Of a stretch of DNA of 38,289 nucleotides, positions 7,564 to 38,289 are shown piece by piece. Positions within the stretch are counted from its first letter, which is position 1, and every line of letters starts with the position of its first letter. Source of the DNA: Paracoccaceae bacterium (GTDB lineage Bacteria; Pseudomonadota; Alphaproteobacteria; Rhodobacterales; Rhodobacteraceae); assembly GCA_902573175.1 (NCBI GenBank), contig CACGIS010000006.1, positions 1 to 38,289 of the forward strand. The letters are read 5' to 3'. The translations under genes and the position numbers were made by a program. The notes below the pieces were generated by a model. It was not told where the DNA came from, made no database searches, and saw nothing but the letters and a program-made list of their open reading frames with translations.

Positions 7564-8112
7564 TTATTTAGTTGGCATAGGCCCGATCATCATAGTCATC
7601 TGCCGTCCTTCTAATTTTGGTATATTCTCAACTTTGCCATGGTCTTTAACATCATCAGCTACTCGTTCGAGTAATTCTCTGCCAAGCTCTTGGTGGGCCA
7701 TTTCTCTCCCTCTGAACCGCATAGTAATTTTCACTTTGTCGCCATTTTCAAGAAATTTGTACACGCTTCTCATTTTTACATCATAATCATGTATATCGGT
7801 TCCAGGTCGGAATTTTATTTCTTTAACTTCAATTATTTTTTGTTTCTTACGAGCCTCAGACTCACGTTTCTGTTGTTCATATTTATACTTTCCAAAATCC
7901 ATTATTTTACAAACTGGTGGACTAGCGTTAGGCGAAATTTCAACTAAATCTAAGCCAACGTCTTCTGCCATTAAGAGTGCTTTTTCTGGGGACACTACCC
8001 CTTCATTCTCTCCTTCAGCGCCTATTAATCTGATTTCTGGGCTCTGGATACCATCATTTACTCTGGGTCCAGTTTCGCGCGAGGGTGGCGCGTTGTGCGG
8101 TTTACGAGCTAT
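7564..8112 (-). CDS. infC: Translation initiation factor IF-3 with an AUA start codon
   Basis: IF3 binds the 30S subunit and rejects wrong start codons and tRNAs. From the ATA at 8110-8112 the protein has 182 residues, the normal length. It includes the N-domain ([45 protein letters not shown]), a lysine-rich linker ([15 protein letters not shown]) and the C-domain ([26 protein letters not shown]). The first conventional in-frame codon is a GTG at 7995, which would delete about 40 conserved residues. No ATG, GTG or TTG occurs between the upstream stop at 8128-8130 and that GTG. The ATA has AAAGGA 8 nt upstream. E. coli infC starts with the rare AUU and is autoregulated through it, so this start is probably functional. 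Confidence 0.9.
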
Positions 8113-8126
8113 TGCTTTGTTCCTTT
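8113..8126 (-). promoter_or_regulatory. Ribosome-binding site that fixes the infC AUA start
   Basis: On the minus strand AAAGGA (8126-8121) is followed by ACAAAGCA and then the ATA codon. The 11-base segment AAAGGAACAAA recurs at the same distance before the ATC codon of rsmA. Confidence 0.7.
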
Positions 8127-8248
8127 GTTAGTTACTAAGTCATGCCCGGCAAAATAGTCATGCCGTATTGCTCTTTCAAGATACAATTTTTCTTTATTTT
8201 GATAATTTTCAATTATTTTGCCAATAATGTAGATTTTATTTGTACTAA

Positions 8249-9055
8249 TCATCCTACGAACGCTTTTTCTACAACGTAATGAGCGGGCTCTGAGTTAGCT
8301 CCTTCTTTAAGTCCAAATTCTTCAAAGATTTTCTTCAAATCTGTATTTAAACCGATAGATCCACATACCATTGCACGGTCAGTTTCTTTGGCAAGATTTT
8401 TTATGTCTAAGTCGTTAAGTAATTTTCCATTTTTGAGCAGATCAGTAATGCGGCCCATTTGATTGCTCTGGTCTCTAGTGGTGGTAGGGTAATAAATTAG
8501 CTTTTTTATAGCATTATCGCCTACTAACTCTGACATTACTCCACCGTTTTTAATTTCCTGAATTAAATTTTCTCCATAGGCCAATTCATTCCTGTTACGA
8601 CAGGTATGGGTTAAAATTATTTGTTCATAGTCCTCATAAGTCTGAGGCTCCCTTAATAGGGATGCGAATGGCGCAATGCCCGTTCCCGTCGCAAAAAACC
8701 AAATTCTTTTGCCAGGCAGTAGTGCGTCATGAACCAATGTTCCTACGGGTTTTGGTCTGAGAATGATTTGATCACCCTTTTTAACATGCTGGAGCTTGGA
8801 TGTAAGGGGGCCGTCTTGAACTTTTATAGAGTAAAATTCCAGTTCATCATCCCATGCAGGAGAGGCGATTGAGTAGGCACGAAGTAAAGGTTTCCCGTCT
8901 TCTTTAAGCAATCCAATCATAACAAACTCACCAGATCGAAAGCGTAGTGTTTTGGGGCGGGTAACTTTGAAAGAAAACAATCGATCTGTATAATGCTGCA
9001 CTCCAATTACAGTTTGTGCGTCTGGAAGCGTAGGCGTTATCTTTGGAGCATTCAC
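8249..9055 (-). CDS. fpr: Ferredoxin/flavodoxin-NADP(+) reductase
   Basis: This FAD enzyme moves electrons between NADPH and ferredoxin or flavodoxin. The 268 residues closely resemble Rhodobacter capsulatus FPR. They show the FAD motif RAYSIASPAWD, the pyrophosphate region GPLTSKLQHV, the nucleotide-binding FFATGTGIAPFASL, then YYPTTTR, RAMVCGS, and the C-terminal EKAFVG tail typical of bacterial subclass I FPRs. I chose the GTG at 9055 because the protein then begins just before LPDAQTV, as in the family. A TTG at 9166 would add 37 basic residues (FLHFLGALNQRSLL and so on) with no clear ribosome-binding site. A P450 gene lies upstream and may draw on it, but FPR also serves general redox roles. 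Confidence 0.9.
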   Translation of the reverse strand: MNAPKITPTLPDAQTVIGVQHYTDRLFSFKVTRPKTLRFRSGEFVMIGLLKEDGKPLLRAYSIASPAWDDELEFYSIKVQDGPLTSKLQHVKKGDQIILRPKPVGTLVHDALLPGKRIWFFATGTGIAPFASLLREPQTYEDYEQIILTHTCRNRNELAYGENLIQEIKNGGVMSELVGDNAIKKLIYYPTTTRDQSNQMGRITDLLKNGKLLNDLDIKNLAKETDRAMVCGSIGLNTDLKKIFEEFGLKEGANSEPAHYVVEKAFVG

Positions 9056-9261
9056 TTTTTTAAACCTGTTAATTTTTTTACTAATCTGTAAGGTAGATAG
9101 CAGACTTCTCTGGTTTAATGCACCTAAAAAATGTAAAAAAGTTTTGTTTAGAGAATGGTTTTTCAATTTAAAGATTTTTTTTATCTCTAGTTGATCTAGA
9201 AGAATAAATTCAGAAGCTTATACGGATTTTAACTAATTCAAAGATTAAAGAAATGTAAAAG

Positions 9262-10488
9262 CTAACCTTTCAAATTGACTAATAATTTCTCTAATCCATG
9301 GAAATGGTAAACATCAGCGTAGCGAGGCTTTTCTGATAACTCCATTTTAGGATATTTTGTGAACAACATTGGCAAAGCTATTTGCATTTCCAGACGAGCA
9401 AGAGCTGCACCAACACAGAAATGAATGCCACCGCCAAATGCTGTATTTTTTTTGATAATTCTATTAGGATCAAAGTATTCAGGATCGCTCCATAATGTTT
9501 TATCCCTTCCAGTTGCACCCAAAACTAGCGCAACTTCGTCACCTTTCTTTAAGGTATGGTCACCAATATCAATCTGATCATATGCATAGCGAGTAAATAT
9601 ATGCAGTGGAGGGTCAAATCTCAAAATCTCCTCTATAAGCTGATTGATTTTTGCCTCACTCTGCCAGTCAATTGTAATTTTTTTGTTCTCCAGTAAGACT
9701 TTAATGCCATTTCCTAAAGAATGAACTGTTGCTTCATGCCCAGCATTTAGCAAAAGGATACAGGTTGTAATCAGTTCGTCTGTTGTTAATTTTTCGCCGT
9801 TTTCTTCGGCGGAAATCAAATGAGTAATTAAATCATCTTTAGGTTTACTTCGGCGTTCCTCAACATAACTTCGCATAAATGCGGAAAACTCTTTGGAAGC
9901 TTTAATGGCACGTTCCTCATGTTTTACTGTCCGCCGCGCTTGATACATCATAACCATATCATTAGACCATCTTAGTAGCTGGTTGCTCATTTCCTCAGGA
10001 ACCCCTAAGAGCCTAGCAATAATGATGACAGGGATTTTATTGGCATACTCATTAAGTATATTTACTTGATTGTTAGAAAAATTTTGCATCAGTTGAGTGC
10101 ATAAAGTTTCGATCTCTGTAGCCATTGAATTAACTTTTCGACTTGTAAAAGCTCGTAAGACTAGGCCACGGAGACGAGTATGTTTAGGCGGTTCTAATTG
10201 GAGCATTGAATGGTCTTCCAGCTCGTAAAAGGGCGCTAACTCCTTACGATGGTCTTTTTTTTTCTCTTCTGGACATTCGCGACCAAATCTTCTGTCTTTT
10301 AGAATATTGGAAACGTCATCATACTTAAACAAAGAAACCATTTTATAATCTTCCCAAAAGACTTTACCTCCTTTGGCTAAACAGGTTTCATAGAAAGGGT
10401 AGGGATTTTGAACAAAATCATCATTTGTTGGAGATTGTGCAACTTTTGGTAACATTTGCCCTCTTAAATAGTGAAAGAAGTCTTTCAC
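9262..10488 (-). CDS. Cytochrome P450
   Basis: This is a soluble haem-thiolate monooxygenase of 408 residues. It shows the oxygen-activating I-helix motif AGHEAT (249-254), the ExxR pair E287-R290 (EEILR), and the haem loop FGGGIHFCVG with ligand C358. The C-helix region HTRLRGLV and the late ARLEMQIALP also fit bacterial class I enzymes. There is no membrane anchor or fused reductase. The GTG at 10488 lies 5 bp after the tpiA stop; an in-frame ATG at 10455 has a better Shine-Dalgarno (AGAGGG) and may be the true start. An FNR-type reductase (fpr) follows on the same strand, but no ferredoxin gene is present. The substrate cannot be read from the sequence. Confidence 0.92.
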   Translation of the reverse strand: MKDFFHYLRGQMLPKVAQSPTNDDFVQNPYPFYETCLAKGGKVFWEDYKMVSLFKYDDVSNILKDRRFGRECPEEKKKDHRKELAPFYELEDHSMLQLEPPKHTRLRGLVLRAFTSRKVNSMATEIETLCTQLMQNFSNNQVNILNEYANKIPVIIIARLLGVPEEMSNQLLRWSNDMVMMYQARRTVKHEERAIKASKEFSAFMRSYVEERRSKPKDDLITHLISAEENGEKLTTDELITTCILLLNAGHEATVHSLGNGIKVLLENKKITIDWQSEAKINQLIEEILRFDPPLHIFTRYAYDQIDIGDHTLKKGDEVALVLGATGRDKTLWSDPEYFDPNRIIKKNTAFGGGIHFCVGAALARLEMQIALPMLFTKYPKMELSEKPRYADVYHFHGLEKLLVNLKG

Positions 10489-10493
10489 ATTGC

Positions 10494-11234
10494 TTATATT
10501 AAATTTGATGCAGCTTTAATTATTTCTATAAAATCATCGCTTTTTAGACTGGCTCCACCAACTAAAGCCCCATTTACATTTGATATCGAGAATATTTCTT
10601 TTGCGTTGGAACCTTTCACAGACCCGCCATATAAAATTTTTACATTATGTGCTTCAGCTCCGTAAGTGCTTGCTAAAAATCCCCTTATAAATGCATGAGC
10701 AGAGCGAATTTGGTCTTTTTCTGGAACCAGCCCTGTACCTATTGCCCATACAGGCTCATAAGCAACGACGGTATTTATTGGTGTAATATTTTTAGGAAGC
10801 GATTTAAGCATTTGTTCTTGTAACACTGCGAGTGTTTTATCTGCTGTTCTTTCTTCCAATGTTTCGCCAATACAAACGACTGCTGTTGCTCCTGCTCTAT
10901 GAACAGCCTCTGATTTAAGTTTAATTATATCATTACTTTCATAATTATCTTGGCGACGTTCCGAGTGCCCCACAAGTATAAGTTGAGCACCTACTTCGAT
11001 GAGCATTTCTGCCGATACTTCACCCGTATGAGCCCCATTTATATTAATGTGACAATTTTGTGCTCCAATTTTTATATTTTTGGTTTGTTCATGCGCAGCC
11101 GAAATAAGTGGAAAGGGAGGGCATATTGCAACTTCGCAAGTTTTTTCTTTGCAATATTGGTCGATCTTTTTTATGTCGGCAATCATTGCTTTATTGCCAA
11201 ACATTTTCCAATTACCGGCAACTAATTTAGACAT
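10494..11234 (-). CDS. tpiA: Triosephosphate isomerase
   Basis: TpiA interconverts dihydroxyacetone phosphate and glyceraldehyde 3-phosphate. The 246 residues contain the active-site set N8/K10 (GNWKM), H90 (VGHSERR) and E160 (AYEPVWAIGTG), plus the phosphate-binding ILYGGSVKGSN and VGGASL loops. The ATG has an AAGAGG Shine-Dalgarno. It is followed after only 5 bp by the P450 gene, an odd partner for a glycolytic gene, so the P450 is probably co-transcribed with it. Length and motifs are ordinary. Confidence 0.96.
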   Translation of the reverse strand: MSKLVAGNWKMFGNKAMIADIKKIDQYCKEKTCEVAICPPFPLISAAHEQTKNIKIGAQNCHININGAHTGEVSAEMLIEVGAQLILVGHSERRQDNYESNDIIKLKSEAVHRAGATAVVCIGETLEERTADKTLAVLQEQMLKSLPKNITPINTVVAYEPVWAIGTGLVPEKDQIRSAHAFIRGFLASTYGAEAHNVKILYGGSVKGSNAKEIFSISNVNGALVGGASLKSDDFIEIIKAASNLI

Positions 11235-11325
11235 TTGAGCCTCTTTTCGTATTTTTGGAATGATTTTTTATTTATCAAATTTATAATATCTTATATTTTT
11301 CAATGCTTTGTGCTTGAAAGTTAAT

Positions 11326-11676
11326 TTACATATTTTCAAATTTGATTGACTCTCCGCAGCCGCATGCCTCGGTGACGTTTGGATTATTAAATTTAAAACC
11401 GGATTCAAGTAATGAGGTTTCATAATCAATTTCTGTCCCAAAAAGAAACATTTGAGCCATTGGTGCAATAAGTACCCGTGCTCCGTCTTGCTCTATAATT
11501 TCATCATTTTGATCGGGTTCTGTAACATACTCCATCGTATATTCCATACCTGCGCATCCACCTTTTTTAACGCCAACTCTCAAGCCAAAGTATTTCTTTG
11601 AACCCATTAATTTATTTATTTGTGAGACAGCGCTATTGGTCAACTTAATTGCATTTTGTCCTGGGATAGCAAACAT
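11326..11676 (-). CDS. A-type iron-sulfur carrier (IscA/SufA/ErpA family)
   Basis: A-type proteins accept Fe-S clusters from a scaffold and deliver them to client enzymes. The 116 residues keep the three cluster cysteines, C41 in KKGGCAGMEY and C105/C107 in EACGCGES, and the family segment LRVGVKKGG. The gene lies 13 bp after the SufT-like gene on the same strand, so the pair acts in cluster assembly. The scaffold genes sufBCDS are not in the window. I cannot tell from sequence alone whether iscA, sufA or erpA is the best name, so I give no symbol. Confidence 0.88.
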   Translation of the reverse strand: MFAIPGQNAIKLTNSAVSQINKLMGSKKYFGLRVGVKKGGCAGMEYTMEYVTEPDQNDEIIEQDGARVLIAPMAQMFLFGTEIDYETSLLESGFKFNNPNVTEACGCGESIKFENM

Positions 11677-11689
11677 TTTATTTATCTAC

Positions 11690-12064
11690 CTACATAAACC
11701 CTAGCTCAAGACGAGCCTCGTCACTCATCATATCCATTCCCCAAGGTGGCTCCCAAGTAATATCTACAGAGACTTGTCTTACTCCACCTGTTCCATTGAT
11801 TGCGTCTTCTACCCATCCGGGCATTTCTCCTGCCACTGGGCACCCTGGAGCCGTTAGTGACATAATTATACTAACATCATTATCTTCAGTGATTTCAATG
11901 GTATAAATGAGCCCCAAGTCATAAATATTTACAGGAATTTCCGGGTCAAATACTGTTCGGCAAGCCTCGACAATCGAGTTGTATAGCGGATGGTCCGTCG
12001 AAGACGGGGTGATCAATGGGGCACCTTCCATAGGCGGACTTACTTCATTCATTGATGAACTCAT
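11690..12064 (-). CDS. sufT: SufT-like iron-sulfur assembly protein (MIP18/DUF59 family)
   Basis: This small protein belongs to the MIP18/DUF59 family that helps Fe-S cluster maturation. The 124 residues have a low-complexity N-terminus (about 20 residues), then the DPEIPVNIYDLGLIY motif, MSLTAPGCPVAGEMP with the conserved cysteine, and the C-terminal WEPPWGMDMMSDEARLELG characteristic of the SUF-associated branch. It is the first gene of a pair with the A-type carrier, 13 bp apart. In many alphaproteobacteria it lies in the suf operon, whereas here the pair is detached and sits after bpt. The ATG has only a weak Shine-Dalgarno. Confidence 0.85.
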   Translation of the reverse strand: MSSSMNEVSPPMEGAPLITPSSTDHPLYNSIVEACRTVFDPEIPVNIYDLGLIYTIEITEDNDVSIIMSLTAPGCPVAGEMPGWVEDAINGTGGVRQVSVDITWEPPWGMDMMSDEARLELGFM

Positions 12065-12118
12065 TGTTATCTTGACTGTTTATATAAGGTATCTGTTACT
12101 CCTAGTCTAGAGCAACGA

Positions 12119-12928
12119 TTAAGTTATGATGCTATCTGGTAAAGACAAAGAAGATACTTGCTCGGAAACAGGTGCTGTATTCAGTGGGTGCAATTCAAGA
12201 GTAGATTTTTCAACCTCAGAAAGTGGTTGCCAAGCGTTATTTTGAAAAATCTCAACACCTTTAAAATTGACTTTATAATCCATTTTAGAGCTACCTGGGA
12301 CCCAATAACCTAAATAAAGATAAGGGACTCCAAGCTCCAAAGCCAATGCTATATGATCCAAAATCATGAAGGTACCTAAAGATTTTTTAGATTTATCTGG
12401 ATCAAAAAAAGAGTAGACCATACTAAGACCATCACTAAGAAAATCTGTTAAACACACGCTCTCAAGTAAATTTTTATTATAGTATTCTATCACGCGCGTT
12501 TCTATTGAAGACTCTTCAATCATCGCTGCAAATTCAAATACATCCATATCGGCCATACCACCTTTGGCATGGCGTTTTTGCAGGTACTTTTGAAATAGAT
12601 CGTATTGCTCCTCCGTTGCCCAAGGGCTATTAGATCTACGGGTTGAACCTTTGTTTCGCCGAATTATTTTTTTCTGACTTTTAGAAGGAGTAAATTTTTT
12701 TACATTAATGCGCGCAGATAAACAAGCTGAGCATTCGTTGCATGAAGGTCTATAAAGTATATTCTGGGATCGACGAAAGCCTTGTTGTGAGAGTGAATCA
12801 TTTAGCAACTGTGCATCATCGCCTTGGATAGATGTAAATAGTTTTCGCTCAATTCTATCAGGCAGATAGGGACATACCTGAGGTGCAGTTACGTAAAATT
12901 GAGGTGCTAGTGGTAAAGTGTGACGCAT
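12119..12928 (-). CDS. bpt: Aspartate/glutamate leucyltransferase (N-end rule)
   Basis: Bpt attaches leucine from Leu-tRNA to proteins with N-terminal Asp or Glu, marking them for ClpS/ClpAP degradation. The 269 residues match the bacterial R-transferase-like family. They show an N-terminal domain with C19 ([10 protein letters not shown]) and the cysteine cluster C63, C66 and C69 ([16 protein letters not shown]), and a C-terminal GNAT-like domain with [16 protein letters not shown]. The cysteines probably hold a metal or cluster. It is divergent from glnE across 199 bp and lies 54 bp before sufT on the same strand. The ATG has no strong Shine-Dalgarno. Confidence 0.9.
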
Positions 12929-13068
12929 GCCAGTATTCTAGACATTTTTTTTGCTGTAGCAATAAAGTTTAGGGTTTAAACAATAATATTCTGTTTTATC
13001 TATATAAATTTATCCAAGACTTCATCTTTGACTGTTTTAAGCTTTTAAAAATAGTTAGAATACGGTCT

Positions 13069-13097
13069 TTGACGGATTGGCTAAATTTCTTCATACT
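13069..13097 (+). promoter_or_regulatory. Possible glnE promoter
   Basis: TTGACG (13069-13074) and CATACT (13092-13097) are 17 bp apart and 30 bp before the glnE start. The -10 match is only moderate. Confidence 0.3.
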
Positions 13098-13127
13098 AAG
13101 GCTATATTGAGGTGAAAGATCAATTTA

Positions 13128-15908
13128 ATGACATTTGAGTTGAAGCCTAAACGAGTTCCCAAGGTTTTTGATCAACGAATAGCCCAAGAGATTTATAACT
13201 TATTTCCCGAGAACTCAGAAAAATTGAGAACTTTTTTTGCTTCGGTGGCATCGTGCAGTCCTTATTTATATTCTCAGATACTAAAAGAGAAAACTTGGTT
13301 GGTGAATACTGTAAGTAATAACGATTTTCACATCTTATCTCTGTTGGAGCCCTTAAAATCAGAAACTTATGACTCGCTATATTTAAAATTAAGGATAGCC
13401 AAAAGAAGAGCAGCCCTCTGGATTGCCCTGAACGATTTAGCTGATACTTGGCCTCTTGAGGTAGTTACAAAAAATCTGTCAGAATTTGCAGATGAAACCA
13501 TAAATTTATCCTGGCGTGCGAGCTTTTTAAAGGAATTGAAAAAAGGCAAATTCCCCAAAAAATACGATGGAGATCCAAATAAAGTAGGTTTTTTTATATT
13601 AGCCATGGGCAAGTTAGGCGCGTTTGAGCTTAATTATTCGTCAGACATTGATTTAATTTGTTTTTTTGATGAGGAAGTATTTCACCCTGAGGAGTTTCAG
13701 AATGTGAGGCGCATTTTTATAAATGCAACGAAAAATATGTATCGGATTTTGAATGAAAATGGGAAAGATGGTTATGTTTTTAGAACAGATTTACGATTGC
13801 GGCCTGATCCATCAGTCACTCCGGTCTGTATGGGTGTTGATGCTGCAGAAAGATACTACGCAAGCCTCGGCAGAACTTGGGAGAGGGCGGCTTTTATAAA
13901 ATCTAGAGTCTGTGCTGGTGACCATTCAGCCGGGATTAAATTTTTAAAAAATATGGAGCCATTTGTTTGGCGCAAATACCTTGATTACGCTGCAATTTCC
14001 GATGCGCATGACATCCGATTGAGAATCCGAGATCATTTCAAAACCAAAATTGGAGATATAACTTTACCTCAGCATAATATGAAACTTGGGCGAGGAGGAA
14101 TTAGAGATATAGAATTCTTTACGCAAACCCATCAAATTATTTTTGGTGGCAGAGATAAAGGTCTGCGATCGAAAGCAACTATCACTTCCCTTCGGGCAAT
14201 CGCTGATAAAAAATGGTTACCAAAAGCTTTAATAAAAGATTTGATTGAAAATTATCGGTTTCATCGAACAATTGAGCATCGTTTGCAAATGATAAATGAC
14301 GCACAGACCCATGAACTTCCTAACTCTGATCAAGGGTTCGTCCGCCTTGCATCTTTAATGGGAACAGAAAAAGACGATTTGCAGAAAGAGTTAGTTGAAA
14401 GATTAAGTAAAACTAATAGTGCAATTGAAGGTTTTTTTGAGCCACAAATTACTGGTCAGAATATTCAAAGATCAAGCTTTTCAAAAGAACTTGAGGACCT
14501 AATGAAAAATTGGGCAAGTTTTCCAGCTTTGCGAACAGCGAGAGCGATGTCTATATTTGAACGAATAAAGCCTTTGATATTAGAAAAGATAAATTCAACT
14601 TCTAGACCTCAAGAAACTTTAAAGGCATTTGGTAATTTTCTTTCAAAGCTACCTGCGGGTATCCAAATATTCTCGCTATTTGAAAATAATAAGCAGATTT
14701 TAGATTTGCTTATTGATATTTTGGGTACTTCCGGAGCTCTGTCAGAATATTTGGTCAAAAATACTGATGTTCTAGATTCTGTGATTGCACCGGAATTTTG
14801 GGAAATTTGGCCGAGTAGAAAATTCCTCTCAAGTGAATTGGAGATAATACTTAAAAGTGAAATGGATTATGAAGCCAAGTTGGATTTAACGCGTCGATGG
14901 TGCAAAGAATGGCAATTTAAGATTGGCGTACATTACTTGAGATCTCAGATAAGTGCGAAAAAAGCAGGGGCTCAATACGCGGAATTAGCTGAAATTACTT
15001 TGAACATTATTTGGAAGGAAGTTCTTTTTGAATTTGCTAAAAAATTTGGTCCTGAGCCAGGAAATGGAGCAGCTGTGATAAGTATGGGCAGTTTAGGCTC
15101 TGGTGTATTACATGCAAATTCAGACCTCGATTTAATAATAATTTATGATGCGGATGGTAATGATCAATCTGAAGGAGACAGGTCGCTTTCGGCTCGCGAA
15201 TACTATTCTCGCCTAACAAAAGCTTTTATTACTGCAATATCAGCGCCAATGAAGGAAGGGCGGTTGTATGAAATTGACATGCGACTTAGGCCTTCAGGTT
15301 TCCAAGGTCCAGTAGCAACTTCATGGAGTTCTTATCAGAATTATCAAAAAAATGAAGCTTGGGTTTGGGAGCATCTAGCATTGACAAGGGCTCGTGCGGT
15401 GGCGGGAAAAGTATTATTGTTAAACGAATTTGAAAATTTCAGAAATTCTTTATTGAAATCTTATCATCGAGAAAATATTTTTAACGAACTAATAAATATG
15501 AGAGCCAGAATATCTCAAGCAAAGTCTTTAAATCCTTGGGATGCTAAGATCGGGCCAGGACGCTTACAAGACATAGATTTACTTTCTCAGGCTGGATGTT
15601 TGGTCAACCGATCTGTTTCTCGCTCCACGGCTGCTGGCCTGGAGGCTCTTTTTTCAGGTAAATTCATATCTCAGCAAGAATTTTTTGAGATAAAAGCGGC
15701 TGCAACTCAGTTATGGTCATGGCAAATTGGTCTAAATATTTTGTTTAAAGGACAAGTTGAGCTTGAAAATTGGGATGTTTTAGATAATGGGGCCCAGGTT
15801 GAGATTTTTGAAAAACAAACCCTTTCTGAAGTTAAAGAAAGGTTGCATCATCTCTCTAATAAAATAAACAAAGTCATTGATAAAATTTTGTCTCATGAGA
15901 AGGGTTAA
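13128..15908 (+). CDS. glnE: Bifunctional glutamine synthetase adenylyltransferase/deadenylylase
   Basis: GlnE adds AMP to glutamine synthetase when nitrogen is plentiful and removes it when scarce, under control of PII. The 926 residues contain two nucleotidyltransferase domains. The N-terminal deadenylylase half has SSDIDL with D173 and D175, after LAMGKLGAFELNY. The C-terminal adenylyltransferase half has NSDLDL with D666 and D668, after MGSLGSGVLHA. Each is followed by its helical domain with LRLRP or MRLRPSG motifs. Length is normal. GAGG lies 15 nt before the ATG, which is far for a Shine-Dalgarno. The next gene follows after 7 bp. No glnB or glnA gene is present here. Confidence 0.95.
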   Translation: MTFELKPKRVPKVFDQRIAQEIYNLFPENSEKLRTFFASVASCSPYLYSQILKEKTWLVNTVSNNDFHILSLLEPLKSETYDSLYLKLRIAKRRAALWIALNDLADTWPLEVVTKNLSEFADETINLSWRASFLKELKKGKFPKKYDGDPNKVGFFILAMGKLGAFELNYSSDIDLICFFDEEVFHPEEFQNVRRIFINATKNMYRILNENGKDGYVFRTDLRLRPDPSVTPVCMGVDAAERYYASLGRTWERAAFIKSRVCAGDHSAGIKFLKNMEPFVWRKYLDYAAISDAHDIRLRIRDHFKTKIGDITLPQHNMKLGRGGIRDIEFFTQTHQIIFGGRDKGLRSKATITSLRAIADKKWLPKALIKDLIENYRFHRTIEHRLQMINDAQTHELPNSDQGFVRLASLMGTEKDDLQKELVERLSKTNSAIEGFFEPQITGQNIQRSSFSKELEDLMKNWASFPALRTARAMSIFERIKPLILEKINSTSRPQETLKAFGNFLSKLPAGIQIFSLFENNKQILDLLIDILGTSGALSEYLVKNTDVLDSVIAPEFWEIWPSRKFLSSELEIILKSEMDYEAKLDLTRRWCKEWQFKIGVHYLRSQISAKKAGAQYAELAEITLNIIWKEVLFEFAKKFGPEPGNGAAVISMGSLGSGVLHANSDLDLIIIYDADGNDQSEGDRSLSAREYYSRLTKAFITAISAPMKEGRLYEIDMRLRPSGFQGPVATSWSSYQNYQKNEAWVWEHLALTRARAVAGKVLLLNEFENFRNSLLKSYHRENIFNELINMRARISQAKSLNPWDAKIGPGRLQDIDLLSQAGCLVNRSVSRSTAAGLEALFSGKFISQQEFFEIKAAATQLWSWQIGLNILFKGQVELENWDVLDNGAQVEIFEKQTLSEVKERLHHLSNKINKVIDKILSHEKG

Positions 15909-15915
15909 CTAACTT

Positions 15916-16194: not shown

Positions 16195-16196
16195 CT

Positions 16197-16838: not shown

Positions 16839-16843
16839 TTTTT

Positions 16844-28445: not shown

Positions 28446-28462
28446 GCAGATAGGTAGTTGTC

Positions 28463-30085: not shown

Positions 30086-30101
30086 TTTTTTTCCAATAAA
30101 A

Positions 30102-30281: not shown

Positions 30282-30307
30282 ATCGCAGCTCTTCGTTACT
30301 ATTTATT

Positions 30308-30369
30308 ATTAAATAAACCCTACTGAAACTGTCAAGAATAAACTTGACAAAAAAAGTCAGATTTATATT
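30308..30369. promoter_or_regulatory. Overlapping divergent promoters with a shared palindrome
   Basis: TGTCAAG (30330-30336) and CTTGACA (30343-30349) form a perfect inverted repeat with a 6-bp spacer. Each arm contains a TTGACA -35, pointing in opposite directions. Minus strand: -10 TTTAAT at 30308-30313 with 16-bp spacing. Plus strand: -10 candidate TATATT at 30364-30369 (14 bp), or TATTAA at 30366-30371 (16 bp). Confidence 0.55.
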
Positions 30370-30392
30370 AAGATCGAATAGAGGGTGATGTA

Positions 30393-30755: not shown

Positions 30756-30810
30756 ACTACCGAAGTCTTTTTTATCGGGTATGTTTTCAAAGTGATTTAA
30801 GCTTCTCTTA

Positions 30811-31620
30811 TTAAGAATTTTTTGCTTGTTGCCAGAGGGTTTCCATTTCTTCCAAAGTTGTATTTTCTATTTTTCCGCCTTGGGAGCGTATTGTGTCCTC
30901 AACGAACTTGAACCGGTTTATGAATTTTCTGTTTGTTTGTTTAAGAGCTTCTTCTGAATCAACACCAAGGTGGCGGCCCAAGTTTACGATTGAAAACATT
31001 AGATCTCCAAATTCTTCATTAATCTTTTCTTGAGATTCGAGTTCTTTTGCTTCGACTAGCTCTTTTGTTTCTTCCTCTATTTTTTCCAAAACTTGTAAAA
31101 TATTAGGCCAATCAAACCCAACTCTGGCAGCCCTTTTTTGCAACTTGAGAGACCTTACCAATGCGGGGAGGTTGAGAGCTACATCATCCAAAATTCCTGT
31201 CTGATTTTTTTTTGCTCTTTCTTCTGCTTTGATTGACTCCCAATCGTTTACCTGTTGGAATGCTGTCTTGTTTCTATGTTCATTACCAAAAACATGAGGA
31301 TGCCTTTGTATCATTTTTTGCGATATTTGGTTTACAACATCATTAAAATTAAAGAGGTCCTCTTCTTCTGCCATTTGTGTGTGATAAACAGTTTGAAGCA
31401 GCAAATCCCCTAATTCATTTTTAAGATCATCCCAGTTTTCACGCTCAATGGCATCAGCAACTTCATAAGCTTCTTCTACAGTATAAGGCGCAATCGTCTT
31501 GAAATTCTGTTCAATATCCCAGGGGCATCCGCCATCAGGATCTCTAAGCGCTCTCATTATTTCTAATAATCGAGGCATTCCTTTTGAGGGATTATTAATT
31601 AGATTTTCATCAAAAGACAT
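30811..31620 (-). CDS. mazG: Nucleoside triphosphate pyrophosphohydrolase MazG
   Basis: MazG hydrolyses NTPs to NMP and pyrophosphate and can lower ppGpp precursors or remove damaged nucleotides. The 269 residues contain two MazG-like domains. The first has GGCPWDIEQNFKTIAPYTVEE with the metal motif EExxE at 49-53 and ELGD at 69-72. The second has a weaker copy (KIEEETKELVEAKE followed by EEFGDLMFSIVNLGRHL). Length matches the usual two-domain form. It is divergent from the M20 amidohydrolase across 63 bp. No toxin-antitoxin genes are nearby, so this is the housekeeping form. Confidence 0.95.
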   Translation of the reverse strand: MSFDENLINNPSKGMPRLLEIMRALRDPDGGCPWDIEQNFKTIAPYTVEEAYEVADAIERENWDDLKNELGDLLLQTVYHTQMAEEEDLFNFNDVVNQISQKMIQRHPHVFGNEHRNKTAFQQVNDWESIKAEERAKKNQTGILDDVALNLPALVRSLKLQKRAARVGFDWPNILQVLEKIEEETKELVEAKELESQEKINEEFGDLMFSIVNLGRHLGVDSEEALKQTNRKFINRFKFVEDTIRSQGGKIENTTLEEMETLWQQAKNS

Positions 31621-31683
31621 TGCAACGTCCCTTTTTCTCAGATTGAATGATCAAACACCAAAATATACGAGCGAGTCATACTT

Positions 31684-32847
31684 ATGGCAATATTGAATAG
31701 CATAGCCGGTTTTGAGAAAGATATGGCAAAGTGGCGCCAACATTTGCATCAAAATCCAGAGCTTGGCCGAGAATGTTATAAAACTGCTGAATATGTAAGT
31801 GAACGTTTAAAAGAATTTGGTATTACTGAAATTCATACGGGATACGCTTCTAGTGGACTTGTGGCGATAATAGAGGGTAAGGGTCCCGGTCGGACTATTG
31901 GTTTAAGAGCTGATATGGATGCTCTGCCTATAACGGAGAATACTGGATTATCTTATTCTTCAGTAAATGAAGGCGTGATGCATGCTTGTGGACATGACGG
32001 CCATACAACCATGTTACTTGGGGCGGCACGTTATCTTTCCGGAACTAAAAATTTTAGTGGGCGAGTTGCGCTTATTTTTCAGCCTGATGAGGAAGCGACT
32101 GGTGGTGCTAAGGCAATGGTTGAAGAAGGCATTATAGAACAATTTCAGATAGAGGAAGTTTACGCACTCCATAACATCCCTGGCCATGATGTAGGAGTAA
32201 TGTACACGCGTTCTGGCCCAATAATGGCAGGTGCGGATAACTTCAGTGTTGAAATCAAAGGGAAAGGTGGCCACGCTGCCTATCCACATGAAGTAAAGGA
32301 TCCAATAGTTGCAGCCTTATCTATTGCACAGGCTTTTCAGACAATCGTTAGTCGAAACAATATTCCTAGCGATGACTTGGTTATTTCCATAACGCAAGTG
32401 CATAGTGGGACTACGGATAATGTGATACCGGAAACAGCCTATTTGAATGGAACAGTGCGGACATTTGATTTGTCTGTTCAGGAAATGGTCATAAAACGTA
32501 TGGAAAAAATTATTTCAGGGCTCGCCATGAGTTTCGAAGTTGAGGCGAAACTTAATTATGAGAAAGGATACCCACCCACCATAAATCATGAGGAAGCAAC
32601 AAATTTCGCAATCGAGGTTGCTAACGACGTCTGTGGACCTGATCAGGTATTAACTTCGGTAAGTAAGGAAATGGGCGCGGAAGATTTCAGCTACATGTTA
32701 GATAAAAGACCAGGTGCGTACCTATTTTTAGGAATAGGAGAAGGTGCTGGTTTACATAATCCAAATTATGACTTCAATGATGCTGCTGCACCTATCGGCG
32801 CATCTTTTTTTGCTCGGCTAATTGAGAAAGCCCTTCCTTTAGGCTAG
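31684..32847 (+). CDS. M20-family amidohydrolase (hippurate hydrolase/amino-acid deacylase type)
   Basis: This zinc-dependent enzyme of 387 residues cleaves acyl or amide bonds of N-acyl amino acids. Motifs: RQHLHQNPELG (18-28), RADMDALPI (75-83), HACGHDGHTTML with metal ligands at C102 and H104, catalytic E136/E137 in QPDEEATGG, ALHNIPG with a further histidine, GKGGHAAYPHE of the dimerisation domain, and MGAEDFSYM. The exact substrate (hippurate, indole-acetyl amino acids, acetyl-ornithine) cannot be read. It lies 51 bp before a SpeB-type gene on the same strand, which suggests joint nitrogen scavenging from modified amino compounds. Confidence 0.92.
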   Translation: MAILNSIAGFEKDMAKWRQHLHQNPELGRECYKTAEYVSERLKEFGITEIHTGYASSGLVAIIEGKGPGRTIGLRADMDALPITENTGLSYSSVNEGVMHACGHDGHTTMLLGAARYLSGTKNFSGRVALIFQPDEEATGGAKAMVEEGIIEQFQIEEVYALHNIPGHDVGVMYTRSGPIMAGADNFSVEIKGKGGHAAYPHEVKDPIVAALSIAQAFQTIVSRNNIPSDDLVISITQVHSGTTDNVIPETAYLNGTVRTFDLSVQEMVIKRMEKIISGLAMSFEVEAKLNYEKGYPPTINHEEATNFAIEVANDVCGPDQVLTSVSKEMGAEDFSYMLDKRPGAYLFLGIGEGAGLHNPNYDFNDAAAPIGASFFARLIEKALPLG

Positions 32848-32898
32848 AGTATTTTAAGATTAATAAATTAAATTTTGTAAAGAAAATCAGAGATAAAA

Positions 32899-33873
32899 AT
32901 GGTATTAAGTAACGCAAAAACTGAGATAGATCTCGCTTTTACAAGAAAAGATTTAAAGGGTTTATCATACGAAAATGCTTTCGGTGGTTCGACTTCATTT
33001 TTGCGACGACGCTACACCAAAAACTTAAAAGATGTTGATATAGCGATAACTGGGGTGCCCTTTGATCAAGCAGTAACCAATCGGCCAGGCGCCAGATTTG
33101 GTCCTAGGGCTATTAGGGAAGCATCAACTTTACAGACATTTGATCCGCCATATGGCTGGGACTTTGATCCTATGCGAGAGTTAAATATTGTTGATTACGG
33201 TGACTTGGCTTTTGATTATGCCAAAGTGCAAGAGTTTCCCTCCTTATTGGAGCAGCATATATCTAAAATTCTGTCAAATAATGTTTCAACAATAGTTTTA
33301 GGGGGTGATCATTTTATAACATACCCAATCTTAAAAGCTTATTTTAATAAGCTAGGGTCACCTTTATCTTTACTACAATTTGATGCGCATTCAGATACTT
33401 GGCCGGATGATGATGAAGACCGAATTGATCATGGAACAATGTTTTATAAGGCAGTAAAAAGTGGAATAATCGACCCTAAAACATCGGTTCAAGTTGGTAT
33501 TCGTACAACAAATGAAGATACCTTGGGGGTAAATATTATTGATGCAAGGGAAGTACATGAAAATGGCCCAGTTGAGGTCGCAAAAAAAATAAAATCAATT
33601 TTGGGAAATCAACCCACATACCTGACATTCGATATTGATTGTCTTGACCCGGCTTTTGCTCCAGGCACTGGGACACCAGTTTGGGGCGGTTTATCTTCCG
33701 GTCAGGCTGCAATTCTTCTTAGGGATATCGCAGGGATTAATATGATAGGTGGAGACGTTGTTGAGGTTTCACCTAGCTATGACACTTCTGGTGCTACGGC
33801 GATTGCTGGCGCTCATGCTGTTACGGAGCTTTTATGCATTTGGGGCTCTAATTCAAAAAATAAGAGGGCTTGA
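32899..33873 (+). CDS. speB: Agmatinase/ureohydrolase-family enzyme
   Basis: The 324 residues belong to the arginase superfamily with a binuclear manganese site: GGDH (135-138), DAHSD (162-166) and DIDCLDPAF (245-253) supply the ligands H138, D162, H164, D166, D245 and D247. The RPGARFGPRAIR loop near residue 62 is typical of agmatinase-type enzymes, which release urea from agmatine to make putrescine. Related guanidino hydrolases act on guanidinobutyrate or guanidinopropionate, so the substrate is not certain. It is followed 32 bp later by prfA and preceded by the M20 enzyme, so the operon may mix nitrogen scavenging with translation genes. Confidence 0.88.
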   Translation: MVLSNAKTEIDLAFTRKDLKGLSYENAFGGSTSFLRRRYTKNLKDVDIAITGVPFDQAVTNRPGARFGPRAIREASTLQTFDPPYGWDFDPMRELNIVDYGDLAFDYAKVQEFPSLLEQHISKILSNNVSTIVLGGDHFITYPILKAYFNKLGSPLSLLQFDAHSDTWPDDDEDRIDHGTMFYKAVKSGIIDPKTSVQVGIRTTNEDTLGVNIIDAREVHENGPVEVAKKIKSILGNQPTYLTFDIDCLDPAFAPGTGTPVWGGLSSGQAAILLRDIAGINMIGGDVVEVSPSYDTSGATAIAGAHAVTELLCIWGSNSKNKRA

Positions 33874-33905
33874 CCCAAGCTTCTTAAAAATCTTATCACC
33901 TCGCC

Positions 33906-34961
33906 ATGGTTCCTTTACAAAAATTAGAACAAATTCATCAAAGATATGAATTCCTAGAGGCTCAGATGAGTACGGGAATATCTGGTGAAGAAATAGCCAA
34001 ACTTTCTAAAGAGTACTCACAATTAAAACCAGTAGTTGAAAAGATCGAGGAATATAAATCGCTGCTTGAAGACTTAAAGGAAGCTGAAGATATGATGGCT
34101 GATCCTGATATGCGGCAACTTGCGGAAGAAGAATTGCCTCTTTTAAAAGCGCGTGTGCCCGCAGTTGAAAAACTGCTGCAGTTGGCGCTACTGCCGAAAG
34201 ATGCTGCAGATGAAAGATCTGCAATGATCGAAATTAGACCAGGTACTGGTGGAGATGAGGCGGCCTTGTTCGCTGCTGATCTTTTAAGAATGTATCAAAG
34301 ATTTTCTGAGACGAGTGGTTGGACATTTGAAGTCATTGAAGAACAGTTATCGGAATTAGGAGGAATAAAAGAGGTTGTTGTTCACATAAAAGGAGATGGA
34401 GTTTTCGCCAAACTTAAATATGAAAGTGGTGTTCATCGAGTTCAACGTGTTCCCGAAACTGAAAGTGGAGGTAGGGTACATACTTCTGCCGCAACTGTTG
34501 CAGTTCTTCCTGAAGCTGAAGATGTCGATATAAAAATTGAACAAAATGATCTTCGGATTGATACTATGCGAAGTTCTGGAGCAGGGGGGCAGCATGTGAA
34601 TACTACTGACTCTGCTGTTAGAATAACTCACATACCTTCGGGAATTGTTGTAACAAGCTCTGAGAAATCTCAACATAGAAATCGAGAAATTGCTATGCAG
34701 GTTTTAAAGACGCGTCTTTATGATTTGGAGCGACAGAGGGTTGATAATGAAAGGTCGGCTGATCGAAAATCACAGGTAGGCTCAGGAGATAGATCGGAAA
34801 GAATTAGAACTTATAACTTTCCGCAGGGTCGTGTTACCGATCATCGAATTAACTTAACTTTGTATAAGCTAGATCAGATTATCCAGGGAGATTTGGTTGA
34901 AATGGTTTCAGCGCTGATTGAATATGCTCAAGCGGAAAAATTAGCTGAGATTGACGAGTGA
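33906..34961 (+). CDS. prfA: Peptide chain release factor 1
   Basis: RF1 reads UAA and UAG stops and releases the protein. The 351 residues show an N-terminal coiled region, the [16 protein letters not shown] segment (108-123), the stop-codon tripeptide region at 183-185, the GGQ motif at 227-229 ([17 protein letters not shown]), and the C-terminal [16 protein letters not shown]. The tripeptide reads PET where E. coli RF1 has PAT; the first and third residues are kept. The stop overlaps the prmC start by 4 bp, so the factor and its methyltransferase are coupled. No clear Shine-Dalgarno precedes the ATG. Confidence 0.96.
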
Positions 34962-35788
34962 AATTAAAAAAGGTTTTAGCCGATACCACAATTAAATTAT
35001 CTGAATCAGGAATTGAAGGTTCGGCAAGGGATGCTAGGATTCTGACTGCATATGCGCTTCAGATTCCAATTTCTGAATTGTCACTTAAGATCAATGAGCA
35101 AGTATCGGGGAAAATAACCTCTAAACTTGAAAAATTAATACTCCGCAGAATTAATAGAGAGCCTATTTCAAAAATTTTAGGGAGAAGAGATTTTTGGGGT
35201 CGGACGTTCTCTATTAATGAAAATGTGCTGGATCCAAGGGGTGATACGGAGACACTAATAGATTTTGTAATAGAAAAACCAGTTAAATCGGTTTTAGAGC
35301 TTGGTACAGGTTCTGGTGCAATTGCAATAACCCTGGCTTGCGAATGGAAAGAGGTTCATGTGACAGCGGTAGATATCTCGGAAGATGCTCTCTTGCTGGC
35401 TAAATTAAACGCGGAAAAGTTTAATGTTCAAAACAAAATCCATTTTTTAAAGTCTGACTGGTATGACAATGTAAAAGGGCTCTTTGATCTCATAATCTCG
35501 AACCCTCCTTATATTGGTTTGGCAGAACAAGATGAATTATCTGCCGAAGTTATAAAATATGATCCTGAAATTGCGTTGTTTGCTGGTCGTGATGGATTGG
35601 ACGCTTATAAAAAGATAATCCCCAACTTACCAAAATTTTTGAAACCAGATGGTTTTGTTGCTCTCGAAACAGGGGCATCACAAAGTAATCAAGTTAAAAA
35701 AATGATGAATGCAGTTGGTTTCATTGATGCAAAAATAGTAAAAGACTTGTCAGGAAAAGACCGTTTAGTGGCGGCAAAACTTGCTTGA
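34958..35788 (+). CDS. prmC: Release factor glutamine methyltransferase
   Basis: PrmC methylates the glutamine of the GGQ motif in RF1 and RF2, raising release efficiency. The 276 residues contain an N-terminal helical domain, SAM motif [13 protein letters not shown] (113-124), motif IV SNPPYIG (181-187) and [13 protein letters not shown] at the end. The usual LIPRPDTE substrate segment reads LDPRGDTE here, a mild variation. The start is a GTG overlapping the prfA stop by 4 bp. A 187-bp gap with unusual sequence follows before the DUF4167 gene. Confidence 0.95.
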
Positions 35789-35852
35789 TTGATAAATTTT
35801 TATTGTTTTATTCTTTTTAGCCTTGTTTATTTATATAAAATTAGGTTACAAA

Positions 35853-35894
35853 GTGCATGTAAAGCGCTTACAGCCTTGGCTGCCGCGCAAATAA
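35853..35894 (+). other. Possible leader peptide and GC-richer element before the DUF4167 gene
   Basis: In an otherwise AT-rich gap (35789-35975) a stretch of about 60 bp is clearly richer in GC. It holds a 13-codon frame (GTG at 35853, TAA at 35892-35894) with product MHVKRLQPWLPRK, and AGG 7 nt before the GTG. It also contains TGTAA-AGCGC-TTACA (35858-35872) and the adjoining repeat CAGCC-TT-GGCTG (35871-35882). This may be a regulatory leader of the DUF4167 gene; I know no match. Confidence 0.3.
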
Positions 35895-35975
35895 CAACAA
35901 GCCCACATCGCAAATAGTTACAATATTAACAGCTCGCGATGAACAATATAGATTGATATAAGGCTCGAAAATTTA

Positions 35976-36563
35976 ATGAGATCTCCCAAATCGCGCTCTC
36001 GGAGTAAGCAGAATAGAAATAACAACCGTTCTGTCGGTAACGTGTTAAACAGAGTTTTTGATAGCTCTGGACCAGAAGGTAAAGTTCGTGGAACACCCCA
36101 GCAGATTATTGACAAGTATAATCAGTTAGCGAGAGACGCACAGCTTTCAAACGACCGCGTTGCTACGGAAAACTTTCAGCAGCACGCTGAGCACTATCTG
36201 AGGCTTCTTGCTCATGCTCAAAAAGAGCAAGAGGCAAGGCGCGAGCAACAAGAGAAAGAGAATAGGGGCCGAAACGGTGATAGGGAAAGAAATAGAATAG
36301 AAAACGGGCCCGATACATCCGGCGGAAACGTTTCGGATTTGGAAAAAGATACCAAAGCTACTTCGGGCGCCGATGGCGGTAAAAACCATTATGAAGCAAT
36401 TCAAGAAAATAACCCGCTAGAGAAAAGCAGCTCAGGCTCTGATGACAATGACAGGTCTTTCAAGGAGAATAGGCGTAAAAGAAACAACAATAGTCAATCT
36501 GATGCCATTGATAAGGATGACAACCCATCAGCTGACAATACTTCAAAAGAGGCTGCTGAGTAG
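35976..36563 (+). CDS. DUF4167 domain protein
   Basis: The 195 residues begin with a basic RS-rich tail (RSPKSRSRSKQNRNNNRS). Next comes the DUF4167 core, GNVLNRVFDSSGPEGKVRGT and QQIIDKYNQLARDAQLSNDRVATENFQQHAEHYLRLL (about 21-80). A long, low-complexity hydrophilic tail rich in E, R, N, D and S ends the protein. The domain is widespread in alphaproteobacteria and often sits beside prfA-prmC, as here. The basic start suggests RNA binding; function is not established. Its TAG is immediately followed by the rsmA stop on the other strand. Confidence 0.9.
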   Translation: MRSPKSRSRSKQNRNNNRSVGNVLNRVFDSSGPEGKVRGTPQQIIDKYNQLARDAQLSNDRVATENFQQHAEHYLRLLAHAQKEQEARREQQEKENRGRNGDRERNRIENGPDTSGGNVSDLEKDTKATSGADGGKNHYEAIQENNPLEKSSSGSDDNDRSFKENRRKRNNNSQSDAIDKDDNPSADNTSKEAAE

Positions 36564-37397
36564 TTAATTTACCCTTAGATGATTAGCTAATAGACAAAAT
36601 TCTTCTATTGTTAGGTTTTCGGCTCTTGCTGCAGGATCTATTTTTAATTTTTTAAGTATATTTTCTATATCAGGTGTTAAGCTTTTAAGCGACGATCTCA
36701 ACATTTTCCTGCGCTGATTAAAAGCTGTAGCTACAACTTTTTCAAGATTGCTCAAATTGGCATTATAATTTGGTGATTTTAATGCTTCTATTTGAACGAC
36801 TGCACTCGTCACTTTAGGGGAGGGATAAAAAACTTCGGGGTTTAGTTTCATCTTTATGGAGGTTTTACATCGCCAATTTGAAAGTACCGATAGCCTGCCA
36901 TATGACTTTTCGCCTGGTTTCGCCGCTATTCGTTCTGCAACTTCGTTTTGAAACATAAGTGTTAAACTATGCCAAAAAGGTGGCCAATCTTTAGCACTCA
37001 ACCACTCAATTAAAAGTTTTGTTCCGACATTGTAAGGAAGATTGGCAATAACTTTAACTGGCTTCGTAAAATACTTTTCTTGCTGTATCTCATTAGCATC
37101 GCCTTCTATTATTTGTAATCTGTCAGGGTAATGATTTTGAATTTCTCTCAATGCCGAAATGCATCTTTTGTCCTTTTCAATGGCTACTACTCTGTGAGCT
37201 CCTTCTGAAAGAAGTCCTCTTGTTAAGCCACCTGGACCGGGCCCAATTTCCAAAATCTCAAAATTTGTTAGATCTCCTGCTAACCTAGCTATTTTCGAAG
37301 TAAGATTTAAGTCGAAGATAAAATTCTGGCCTAAAGATTTTTTTGCGTTGAGATCATATTTTTCAATGACCTGTCTTATAGGCTGAAGTTTATTGAT
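36564..37397 (-). CDS. rsmA: 16S rRNA dimethyltransferase RsmA (KsgA) with a probable AUC start codon
   Basis: RsmA dimethylates A1518 and A1519 of 16S rRNA during 30S maturation. From the ATC at 37395-37397 it has 277 residues, the normal length. The N-terminus NKLQPIRQVIEKYDL is followed by KSLGQNF (20-26), LEIGPGPGG (49-57) and NLPYN (119-123), and later FYPSPKVTSAVV. No ATG, GTG or TTG occurs between the upstream in-frame stop (37434-37436) and a TTG at 37253, which would remove the essential KSLGQNF segment. The ATC has AAAGGA 8 nt upstream and overlaps the pdxA end by 8 bp, so coupling is possible. A sequence error (ATG to ATC) is the main alternative. Confidence 0.88.
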   Translation of the reverse strand: MNKLQPIRQVIEKYDLNAKKSLGQNFIFDLNLTSKIARLAGDLTNFEILEIGPGPGGLTRGLLSEGAHRVVAIEKDKRCISALREIQNHYPDRLQIIEGDANEIQQEKYFTKPVKVIANLPYNVGTKLLIEWLSAKDWPPFWHSLTLMFQNEVAERIAAKPGEKSYGRLSVLSNWRCKTSIKMKLNPEVFYPSPKVTSAVVQIEALKSPNYNANLSNLEKVVATAFNQRRKMLRSSLKSLTPDIENILKKLKIDPAARAENLTIEEFCLLANHLRVN

Positions 37398-38289
37398 CTT
37401 TTTGTTCCTTTTTTGACAAATTCCAAGCCAGTTTTATAGCTTCTATAGTCGAAGTAGGATTAGCCAGATTTTTGCCAGCTATATCGAAAGCTGTTCCATG
37501 ATCAGGTGAAGTCCTTATGAAACTCAGCCCAATTGTTAAGTTGACACTAGTATGAAAATCTAGTGTTTTTATTGGTATTAGTGCTTGATCATGATACATG
37601 CAGACCGCTGCATCAAATCTCCGTCTTTTTTTTCCGTAAAACATAGTATCTGCGGAGATTGGGCCTATCAAATTATATCCTTCTGATTGAAGTTTTCTTA
37701 TAACTGGTATTATAAATTTTTGCTCCTCATCTCCAATTGTTCCGGCTTCTCCAGCATGAGGATTCAGTCCTGAAATCCAAATGCTTGGATTTGAAATCGA
37801 AAATCTACTAGTAAGTTCGCGATGCGTGGTTAAAATTGTTTTCTCAATTAATTCTGCAGTCAAATATTTAGTTATATCTTTGATGGGAACATGAATGGTT
37901 GTGGGAACTACTCTTAAATATTTATTAACTAGCATCATCCCATATGTATTTTTTTCGTCCAAGTGAGCTAAGTATTCCGTGTGTCCTGGAAAGGAAAAAT
38001 TTGTTCCATTCTTTAGAATTGATTTACTTATCGGCATTGTACAAATAGCGGAACATTGTCCATTTTTTATAAAATTCACTCCGCGTTCTACTGCGCTTAT
38101 AGTCGCCTCAGCATTTTTTGGGTTTGGTTTGCCTGGAACTCTATGTTCGGCAAACTTATGTCGAATGACTGTTAGGACGTTTTTCTCAACGTCAGATGGG
38201 AGCGGCGCATAATCAAGAATTTTGATGTTAATATTTTTTGGTAAGAAATCAGGGTCAATAATAATGCATAGGGGAATTTCGTCTTTCAG
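37390..38289 (-). CDS. pdxA: 4-hydroxythreonine-4-phosphate dehydrogenase, partial
   Basis: PdxA oxidises 4-phosphohydroxy-L-threonine in vitamin B6 synthesis. The frame is open to the right edge, giving 299 residues; about 30 N-terminal residues are outside the window. Visible motifs are the RVPGKPNPKNAEATI region, TMPISK (with the conserved lysine), FPGHTEYLA, SGLNPHAGEAGTIGDEE with a metal histidine, CMYHDQALIP with another, and the final RTSPDHGTAFDIAG. A GTG at 38079 is only an internal codon, because the conserved protein continues upstream. It overlaps rsmA by 8 bp; pdxA-rsmA is a common bacterial pair. Confidence 0.94.
   Translation of the reverse strand: MKDEIPLCIIIDPDFLPKNINIKILDYAPLPSDVEKNVLTVIRHKFAEHRVPGKPNPKNAEATISAVERGVNFIKNGQCSAICTMPISKSILKNGTNFSFPGHTEYLAHLDEKNTYGMMLVNKYLRVVPTTIHVPIKDITKYLTAELIEKTILTTHRELTSRFSISNPSIWISGLNPHAGEAGTIGDEEQKFIIPVIRKLQSEGYNLIGPISADTMFYGKKRRRFDAAVCMYHDQALIPIKTLDFHTSVNLTIGLSFIRTSPDHGTAFDIAGKNLANPTSTIEAIKLAWNLSKKEQKDQ
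37395..37411 (-). promoter_or_regulatory. Ribosome-binding site and AUC codon of rsmA
   Basis: The minus strand reads AAAGGA (37411-37406), ACAAAAAG, then ATC (37397-37395). The 11-base core AAAGGAACAAA and the 8-nt spacing are identical to those before the infC ATA codon. Confidence 0.65.

Follow-up and report, generated by a model that had tools for sequence, protein, structure and literature searches.

A conserved, probable AUC/AUA start codon at rsmA in a clade of marine Rhodobacteraceae, a candidate for control through initiation fidelity

Introduction

Translation initiation factor 3 (IF3) represses non-canonical start codons and, by way of one of them, its own synthesis: infC is autoregulated through a non-AUG start, which is AUU in Escherichia coli and AUC in Streptomyces (PMC5472188). 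In the same source, Streptomyces sigR has a GTC start that is repressed by IF3. Here we describe rsmA (ksgA), the gene of the 16S ribosomal RNA (rRNA) dimethyltransferase RsmA/KsgA, together with infC, on a 38,289-nucleotide stretch of Rhodobacteraceae DNA (assembly GCA_902573175.1, contig CACGIS010000006.1, positions 1 to 38,289), hereafter the window. Both genes appear to begin there with an AUN codon.

A weak AUN start is also found on a housekeeping gene, E. coli pcnB, whose AUU codon limits expression. E. coli ksgA is itself said, since van Gemen in 1989, to be translationally autoregulated. The rRNA methylase genes sgm and kgmB are autoregulated in translation as well (PMC2791848). In these three cases an rRNA methyltransferase limits its own translation, and none of them is known to do so through the start codon.

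Several observations tie KsgA to initiation. In cells deficient in KsgA, non-AUG starts yield more protein, and such starts are overrepresented among the proteins that increase in E. coli and H. volcanii when KsgA/Dim1 is missing; the same source cites earlier reporter work (PMC7897474). Initiator-tRNA selection becomes less faithful when rsmA is lost, and IF3 uses the A1518/A1519 region as a binding site (PMC7949028). According to a section heading of PMC2268962, IF3 overexpression decreases the efficiency of re-initiation.

The locus described here resembles infC autoregulation in that an AUN start with a Shine-Dalgarno (SD) sequence stands on a gene acting on start-codon fidelity; it differs in that the gene encodes an rRNA dimethyltransferase, that the start falls within the stretch shared with pdxA, and that regulation is proposed. 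The likeness to sigR would be that of a second non-infC gene whose translation depends on a non-canonical start under IF3 repression, although sigR encodes a stress sigma factor and begins with GTC rather than AUC/AUA. Because the rsmA product itself bears on initiation fidelity, a loop is possible at rsmA, unlike at sigR. With pcnB the gene shares a weak AUN start, but PcnB is no fidelity factor and no feedback is expected there. By analogy, the rsmA start is plausibly a further instance of the infC/sigR kind of control, and feedback is likewise plausible. Searches of titles and abstracts in the open-access literature returned no description of an rsmA/ksgA gene with a non-canonical start.

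Results

The rsmA start codon

At the level of sequence, rsmA of the window and of its closest relatives lacks a canonical start, carries a conserved AUC/AUA codon in its place, has an SD sequence before that codon, overlaps pdxA, and is in this state in one clade alone. We refer to these low-GC marine Rhodobacteraceae of the window's genus as the focal clade, in which rsmA was recovered from five genomes: that of the window (G000; 1.53 Mb, 58.8% complete, 101 contigs), G002, G004, G006, and G010. A further five of the 16 same-genus genomes form a subclade in which rsmA starts with ATG (G003, G005, G009, G011, and G012), and the remaining six have no match or a weak one (in G014, a weak match alone, E 9.5e-4). 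The features of the window on which the argument depends are as follows.

36564..37397, minus strand: rsmA/ksgA, 277 codons from ATC at 37397-37395, TIGR00755 match
37401..37411, minus strand: AAAGGAACAAA before rsmA, its SD core lying inside the last pdxA codons (..KKEQKDQ*)
37390..38289, minus strand: 3' part of pdxA, 5' end beyond the window, TIGR00557 343 bits (cut-off 290)
7564..8112, minus strand: infC (IF3), 182 codons from ATA at 8112-8110, TIGR00168 252 bits (cut-off 60), supported by IF3_N and IF3_C domains in the product
8116..8126, minus strand: AAAGGAACAAA before infC, an SD core AAGGA followed by an A-rich spacer, 3 bases before the ATA

The identity of RsmA/KsgA is clear from TIGR00755 (247.7 bits against a cut-off of 171, profile positions 2-256 of 256). 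The first ATG, GTG, or TTG of the rsmA frame in the window lies at 37253 and would remove an N terminus that is conserved in relatives; a gene finder restricted to these three codons would start the gene about 48 codons late. In all five focal species, no ATG, GTG, or TTG occurs between the upstream in-frame stop and RsmA residue 17, and a conserved non-canonical start with an SD sequence is present. The codon is ATC in G000, G002, G004, and G010 and ATA in G006, where the case is tightest, with 6 codons between the in-frame stop and the ATA. Since a further AUN codon is nearby in G002 (ATA beside ATC) and G010 (a second ATC), the exact start is less sure in these two.

Outside the focal clade, rsmA has ATG or another canonical start in the immediate vicinity. 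The ATG subclade has ATG at the very codon that is AUC/AUA in the focal clade. Across 112 comparison loci (the five of the ATG subclade, 104 from other genomes of the family, and three from the class, with one, L287, aligning weakly), a canonical start was found within -8 to +1 of the focal codon in every case (99 ATG, 13 GTG or TTG); an rsmA match was present in 143 other family genomes, of which 39 had been left out as fragments or for longer open frames upstream. The codon aligned with the focal start encodes Ile (ATC, ATT, or ATA) in 85 of these loci, and the ATG of relatives stands at -3 to it in 75. Because AUC/AUA aligns with the relatives' Ile codon and their ATG usually lies three codons upstream, the Ile codon probably became the start. 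The simplest reading of the alignment is thus an ancestral N terminus M-x-x-I-D-x-L-P-P-L, loss of the ATG in the genus, and conversion of the Ile codon into a start, with ATG at that position in the other subclade. In the RsmA tree the five focal sequences lie on one side of a branch with 100/100 support, and a branch with full support likewise sets the ATG subclade apart, but the point at which the two subclades connect is weakly supported (62/85), so that the order in which AUH and ATG occupied this codon within the genus is something we infer.

Among 27 named rsmA loci, five are copies or a piece of the focal genomes and 20 have a canonical start; of the other two, L083 is cut by a contig end and L098 is not alignable at the N terminus. 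Four of the five focal states are matched by named records from other projects, which makes sequencing error unlikely.

The pdxA-rsmA junction and the SD sequence

The pdxA stop codon (TAA, 37392-37390) lies within rsmA, giving an overlap of 8 bases (37390-37397) that recurs in all five focal species by match coordinates and leader sequences. In E. coli K-12 pdxA and rsmA also overlap, by 4 bases there as against 8 here. Stop and start overlapping, with the SD sequence inside pdxA, is the arrangement in which translational coupling would be expected. The leaders read AAAGGAACAAA-AAG in G000, GAAGGAACAAA-ATA in G002, AAAGGGAGCAAA-GGG in G004, GAAGGAACAAA-GAG in G006, and AAAGGATCAGA-AGT in G010. 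The exact AAAGGAACAAA is therefore found in one of five, the 10-mer AAGGAACAAA in three, and the SD core AGGR in all five.

Predicted pairing of these leaders with the 16S 3' end (taken from G004) amounts to -5.6 to -7.8 kcal/mol in the focal five and -0.4 to -0.7 kcal/mol in the same-genus ATG five, a slightly uneven comparison in that the strings had 19 bases in the focal clade and 16-18 in the ATG subclade; the background median was -3.85 (n = 128 starts). A weak start with a good SD sequence in one subclade and a good start with a poor one in the other looks like compensation. SD compensation has been described for GUG and UUG starts, although the same source found that for cumulative substitutions in alphaproteobacteria the trend lacked significance (PMC5622118).

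Where pdxA ends with respect to the rsmA start is not the same in the two same-genus subclades, ranging from an overlap to a few bases before the ATG (L018, L022, L023, L027, and L028 versus L006-L010), and the junction is thus evolutionarily mobile. In the ATG subclade, the pdxA match of G011 (C82, 14141-14888; L208 and L210) falls into two pieces, the 3' one containing a TGA, unlike in its neighbor G005, where pdxA is one open frame; G011 has either a frame break or a sequencing error.

A screen for other non-canonical starts

We compared 255 G000/G004 ortholog pairs for protein frames conserved upstream of the first canonical codon. Such a frame of at least 5 codons was present in 62 pairs. 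The codons of 16 of these, including rsmA and infC, were read, and the other starts were judged by eye to be ATG, TTG, or GTG. At least 30 codons lay upstream in five of the 62, namely rsmA, infC, and three frames antisense to other genes, so that a conserved protein frame reaching far upstream of a canonical start was seen at infC and rsmA alone. No gene with a non-canonical start was seen among 91 G000/G006 ortholog pairs. The screen took in roughly half of G000 and a portion each of G004 and G006, and is blind to genes in which a canonical codon closely follows the start or happens to lie upstream of it. Within these limits G000 is not a free user of AUN starts, as infC and rsmA were the only ones found.

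Discussion

A proposed role for the rsmA start

Both AUN starts are real features of the window; that of rsmA is a clade-specific novelty, and that of infC is known in kind. We propose that in the focal clade the rsmA ATG was lost, that the gene now starts at AUC/AUA with an SD sequence supplied by the pdxA tail, and that this start is held down by IF3, with probable negative feedback by KsgA. We give this reading a probability of roughly 0.6. The Ile codon, RsmA position 4 in relatives, would have taken over as the start and would be served by the SD sequence in the last pdxA codons, with ribosomes that finish pdxA probably feeding it across the 8-base overlap. As at infC and Streptomyces sigR, IF3 would keep the weak codon down. 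Because KsgA-unmethylated ribosomes start more readily at non-AUG codons, translation of rsmA would rise whenever the gene's own product runs low, a negative feedback of the gene on itself. On this view rsmA would be an IF3-sensitive gene like infC, probably with self-feedback. Taken together, the literature predicts repression of rsmA by IF3 in this clade, and its release when KsgA methylation runs short; the fidelity logic of the initial annotation, which had ascribed rejection of non-AUG-type starts to IF3 and a role in initiation fidelity to KsgA, fits it (IF3, PMC5472188; KsgA, PMC7897474). Sensitivity to IF3, feedback by KsgA, and a benefit to the cell would each follow from this reasoning, and fidelity-based regulation is, with moderate confidence, the best-supported reading of why the start could matter.

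Differences at fourfold sites between focal species reach 33 of 64, yet ATG has returned in none of the five. The retention of AUC/AUA despite this divergence hints at selection, with the caveats that the state has a single origin and that the codon overlaps the last codon of pdxA.

Several points weigh against our proposal. The focal species are related, so the five sequences amount to one origin, and initiation at the AUC/AUA codon is itself deduced from sequence. The last pdxA codon (Gln in four species, Lys in one) begins with the base that is third in the start codon, a shared base that might be held for another reason. The focal SD sequences are good but not exceptional, given that 11 to 34% of the 128 background starts equal or exceed them in strength. 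Folding of the five species gave no consistent structure and no conserved RNA element at the rsmA start, and predicted pairing of the SD sequence and start codon varies between species, with the start codon open in two of them (G002 and G010), roughly half so in G006, and largely paired in the other two (G000 and G004). The fidelity work on rsmA in section 13 of PMC7949028 concerns selection of the initiator tRNA, not start codons.

A wider loop can be imagined for this clade, in which IF3 and KsgA, two determinants of start-codon stringency that act at the same 16S end, each depend on a start that works well only on lax ribosomes. A fall in overall stringency would then raise both, IF3 would repress both, and KsgA would be regulated via the very property that it confers on the ribosome. 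We offer this extension tentatively and hold it to be doubtful.

A start change to AUC or AUA is very rare in evolution, and here it has befallen the gene of a near-universal 16S dimethylase, as loss of a start codon and its replacement by an internal Ile codon. Among 61,358 ancestral AUG starts, one change to AUU was recorded in PMC5622118, and the terms AUC and AUA are absent from its text. If sensitivity to IF3 or KsgA is true, the link between rRNA methylation and start choice would be a natural feedback loop, testable by swapping one codon.

Alternative explanations

The AUC/AUA start may be real and still serve no regulatory use of the IF3 or KsgA effect, being a low-dosage setting or a relic of the lost ATG in small genomes, with pdxA coupling and a good SD sequence supplying enough RsmA. 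The single origin of the state on a branch with 100/100 support, genome sizes of about 1.4-2.4 Mb, and a pdxA-rsmA junction that differs between the subclades are all consistent with this, as is an SD sequence stronger than in the ATG subclade, which simple compensation predicts (PMC5622118, for GUG and UUG). Less readily explained is that none of the five species has returned to ATG, although ATA to ATG is one transition, and that the screen shows no other such gene except infC, which is known to be autoregulated. We consider this explanation unlikely on balance, if still one to be taken seriously.

RsmA could instead arise as part of a PdxA-RsmA fusion, through ribosomal frameshifting where pdxA ends and with no initiation at AUC/AUA. 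The frames do overlap by 8 bases, and in G000 an A-rich run is present and the rsmA frame stays open over the 12 codons that precede the ATC. However, no slippery sequence is kept, as the A-run varies from species to species and the last sense codon of pdxA is CAA in four of them but AAA in the fifth, and a stop interrupts the rsmA frame 5-6 codons before the AUA/AUC of G006 and G010. Frameshifting is accordingly a poor candidate.

The initial annotation had proposed one initiation module shared by infC and rsmA, marked by an identical 11-mer, and its observation holds: an AUN codon stands 3 bases after AAAGGAACAAA at both genes (AUA at infC, AUC at rsmA), and neither has a full-length frame from ATG, GTG, or TTG, which leaves the AUN codon with its well-placed SD sequence as the one good candidate. 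At infC the 11-mer is followed by GCA and then the ATA that opens the IF3 frame, and at rsmA by AAG and then the ATC that opens the RsmA frame (INKLQPIRQVIEKYDL...). The window contains exactly these two copies, both on the minus strand (8116-8126 and 37401-37411), whereas shuffled sequences gave a mean of 0.07 copies per shuffle and at least two copies in 1 of 100 shuffles. Genome-wide, G000 has five copies against three for a reversed-pattern control, and the other three are followed at that spacing by AGT, CTG, and AAG, none of them a start codon. In register before 569 ORF starts (open reading frames of at least 150 amino acids in a sampled 795 kb of G000), there was no exact match, one of 10/11, and one of 9/11. 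The 11-mer is thus not a common leader in G000, and the annotation's own concern that it might commonly precede ordinary ATG genes does not apply there. Even with SD placement fixed, among the 21 canonical starts of the sample with AGGA at -12 to -9, the spacer ACAAA was matched at 4 of 5 bases in one and at 5 of 5 in none.

If AAAGGAACAAA were a specific element, recognized at both genes by a common factor or in the same manner by ribosomes, this would account for the exact match at each and for AAGGAACAAA at rsmA in three of the five species. The match is unusual within G000, yet it was chosen post hoc and is not kept in relatives. Likewise, the agreement of the ACAAA spacer is uncommon in G000, which favors the annotation, but it is missing from other rsmA leaders and from infC outside the clade, which disfavors it. 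The spacers of the G004 and G010 rsmA leaders differ, the bases on the rsmA side double as pdxA codons, and IF3 action on a start codon requires no such element. ATG-started rsmA genes without the motif, named in the annotation as evidence against its proposal, do exist outside the focal clade. A conserved infC-rsmA leader element was rejected, since the 11-mer is identical at 9 of 9 focal infC loci but stands at one of five focal rsmA genes, where the AGGR core alone is constant; co-regulation through one module is very improbable. GGAAC as a mimic of the GGAA loop of 16S helix 45, considered because the 16S of G004 reads GGGGAACC at that loop, was also discarded: it has no flanking stem, and rsmA of G004 and G010 lacks GGAAC.

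Least credible of all is a sequencing or assembly error or a decaying rsmA: although the G000 assembly is incomplete and fragmented, five genomes share the state, the four named independent records refute error, the full-length frame is open on one contig in four species and continues on a second contig in G010, and no inactivating changes were seen in rsmA of the five focal genomes.

The infC start

The AUA start of infC is ordinary, since non-AUG starts of infC are known and AUA is the form of this family. The first ATG, GTG, or TTG in the frame lies at 7995 and would remove an N terminus conserved in relatives. Matches to infC were found in 57 of 61 genomes, and of the 30 family loci taken into the start-codon count, 28 have ATA, one has ATC, and one is unassignable because of a frame break. 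AGG, GGA, or GAG precedes the start codon in the 29 assignable loci, and outside the focal clade AGG is kept and ACAAA is not. A conserved non-canonical start with an SD sequence, as IF3-type control would require, is thus present at infC. An in-frame canonical codon lies at most 25 codons upstream in 8 of the 30 loci.

Two loci may depart from the usual infC start. In L050 (G021), an in-frame ATG stands 3 codons before the conserved ATA and directly after the SD sequence, and L060 (G030) has ATC in place of ATA. In L052 (G009), the N terminus and the conserved ATA lie in different frames, which fits a small indel close to the start. Upstream of infC in the window, a cytochrome P450 and an FAD/NAD-binding oxidoreductase are encoded on the same, minus strand (8249-10488).

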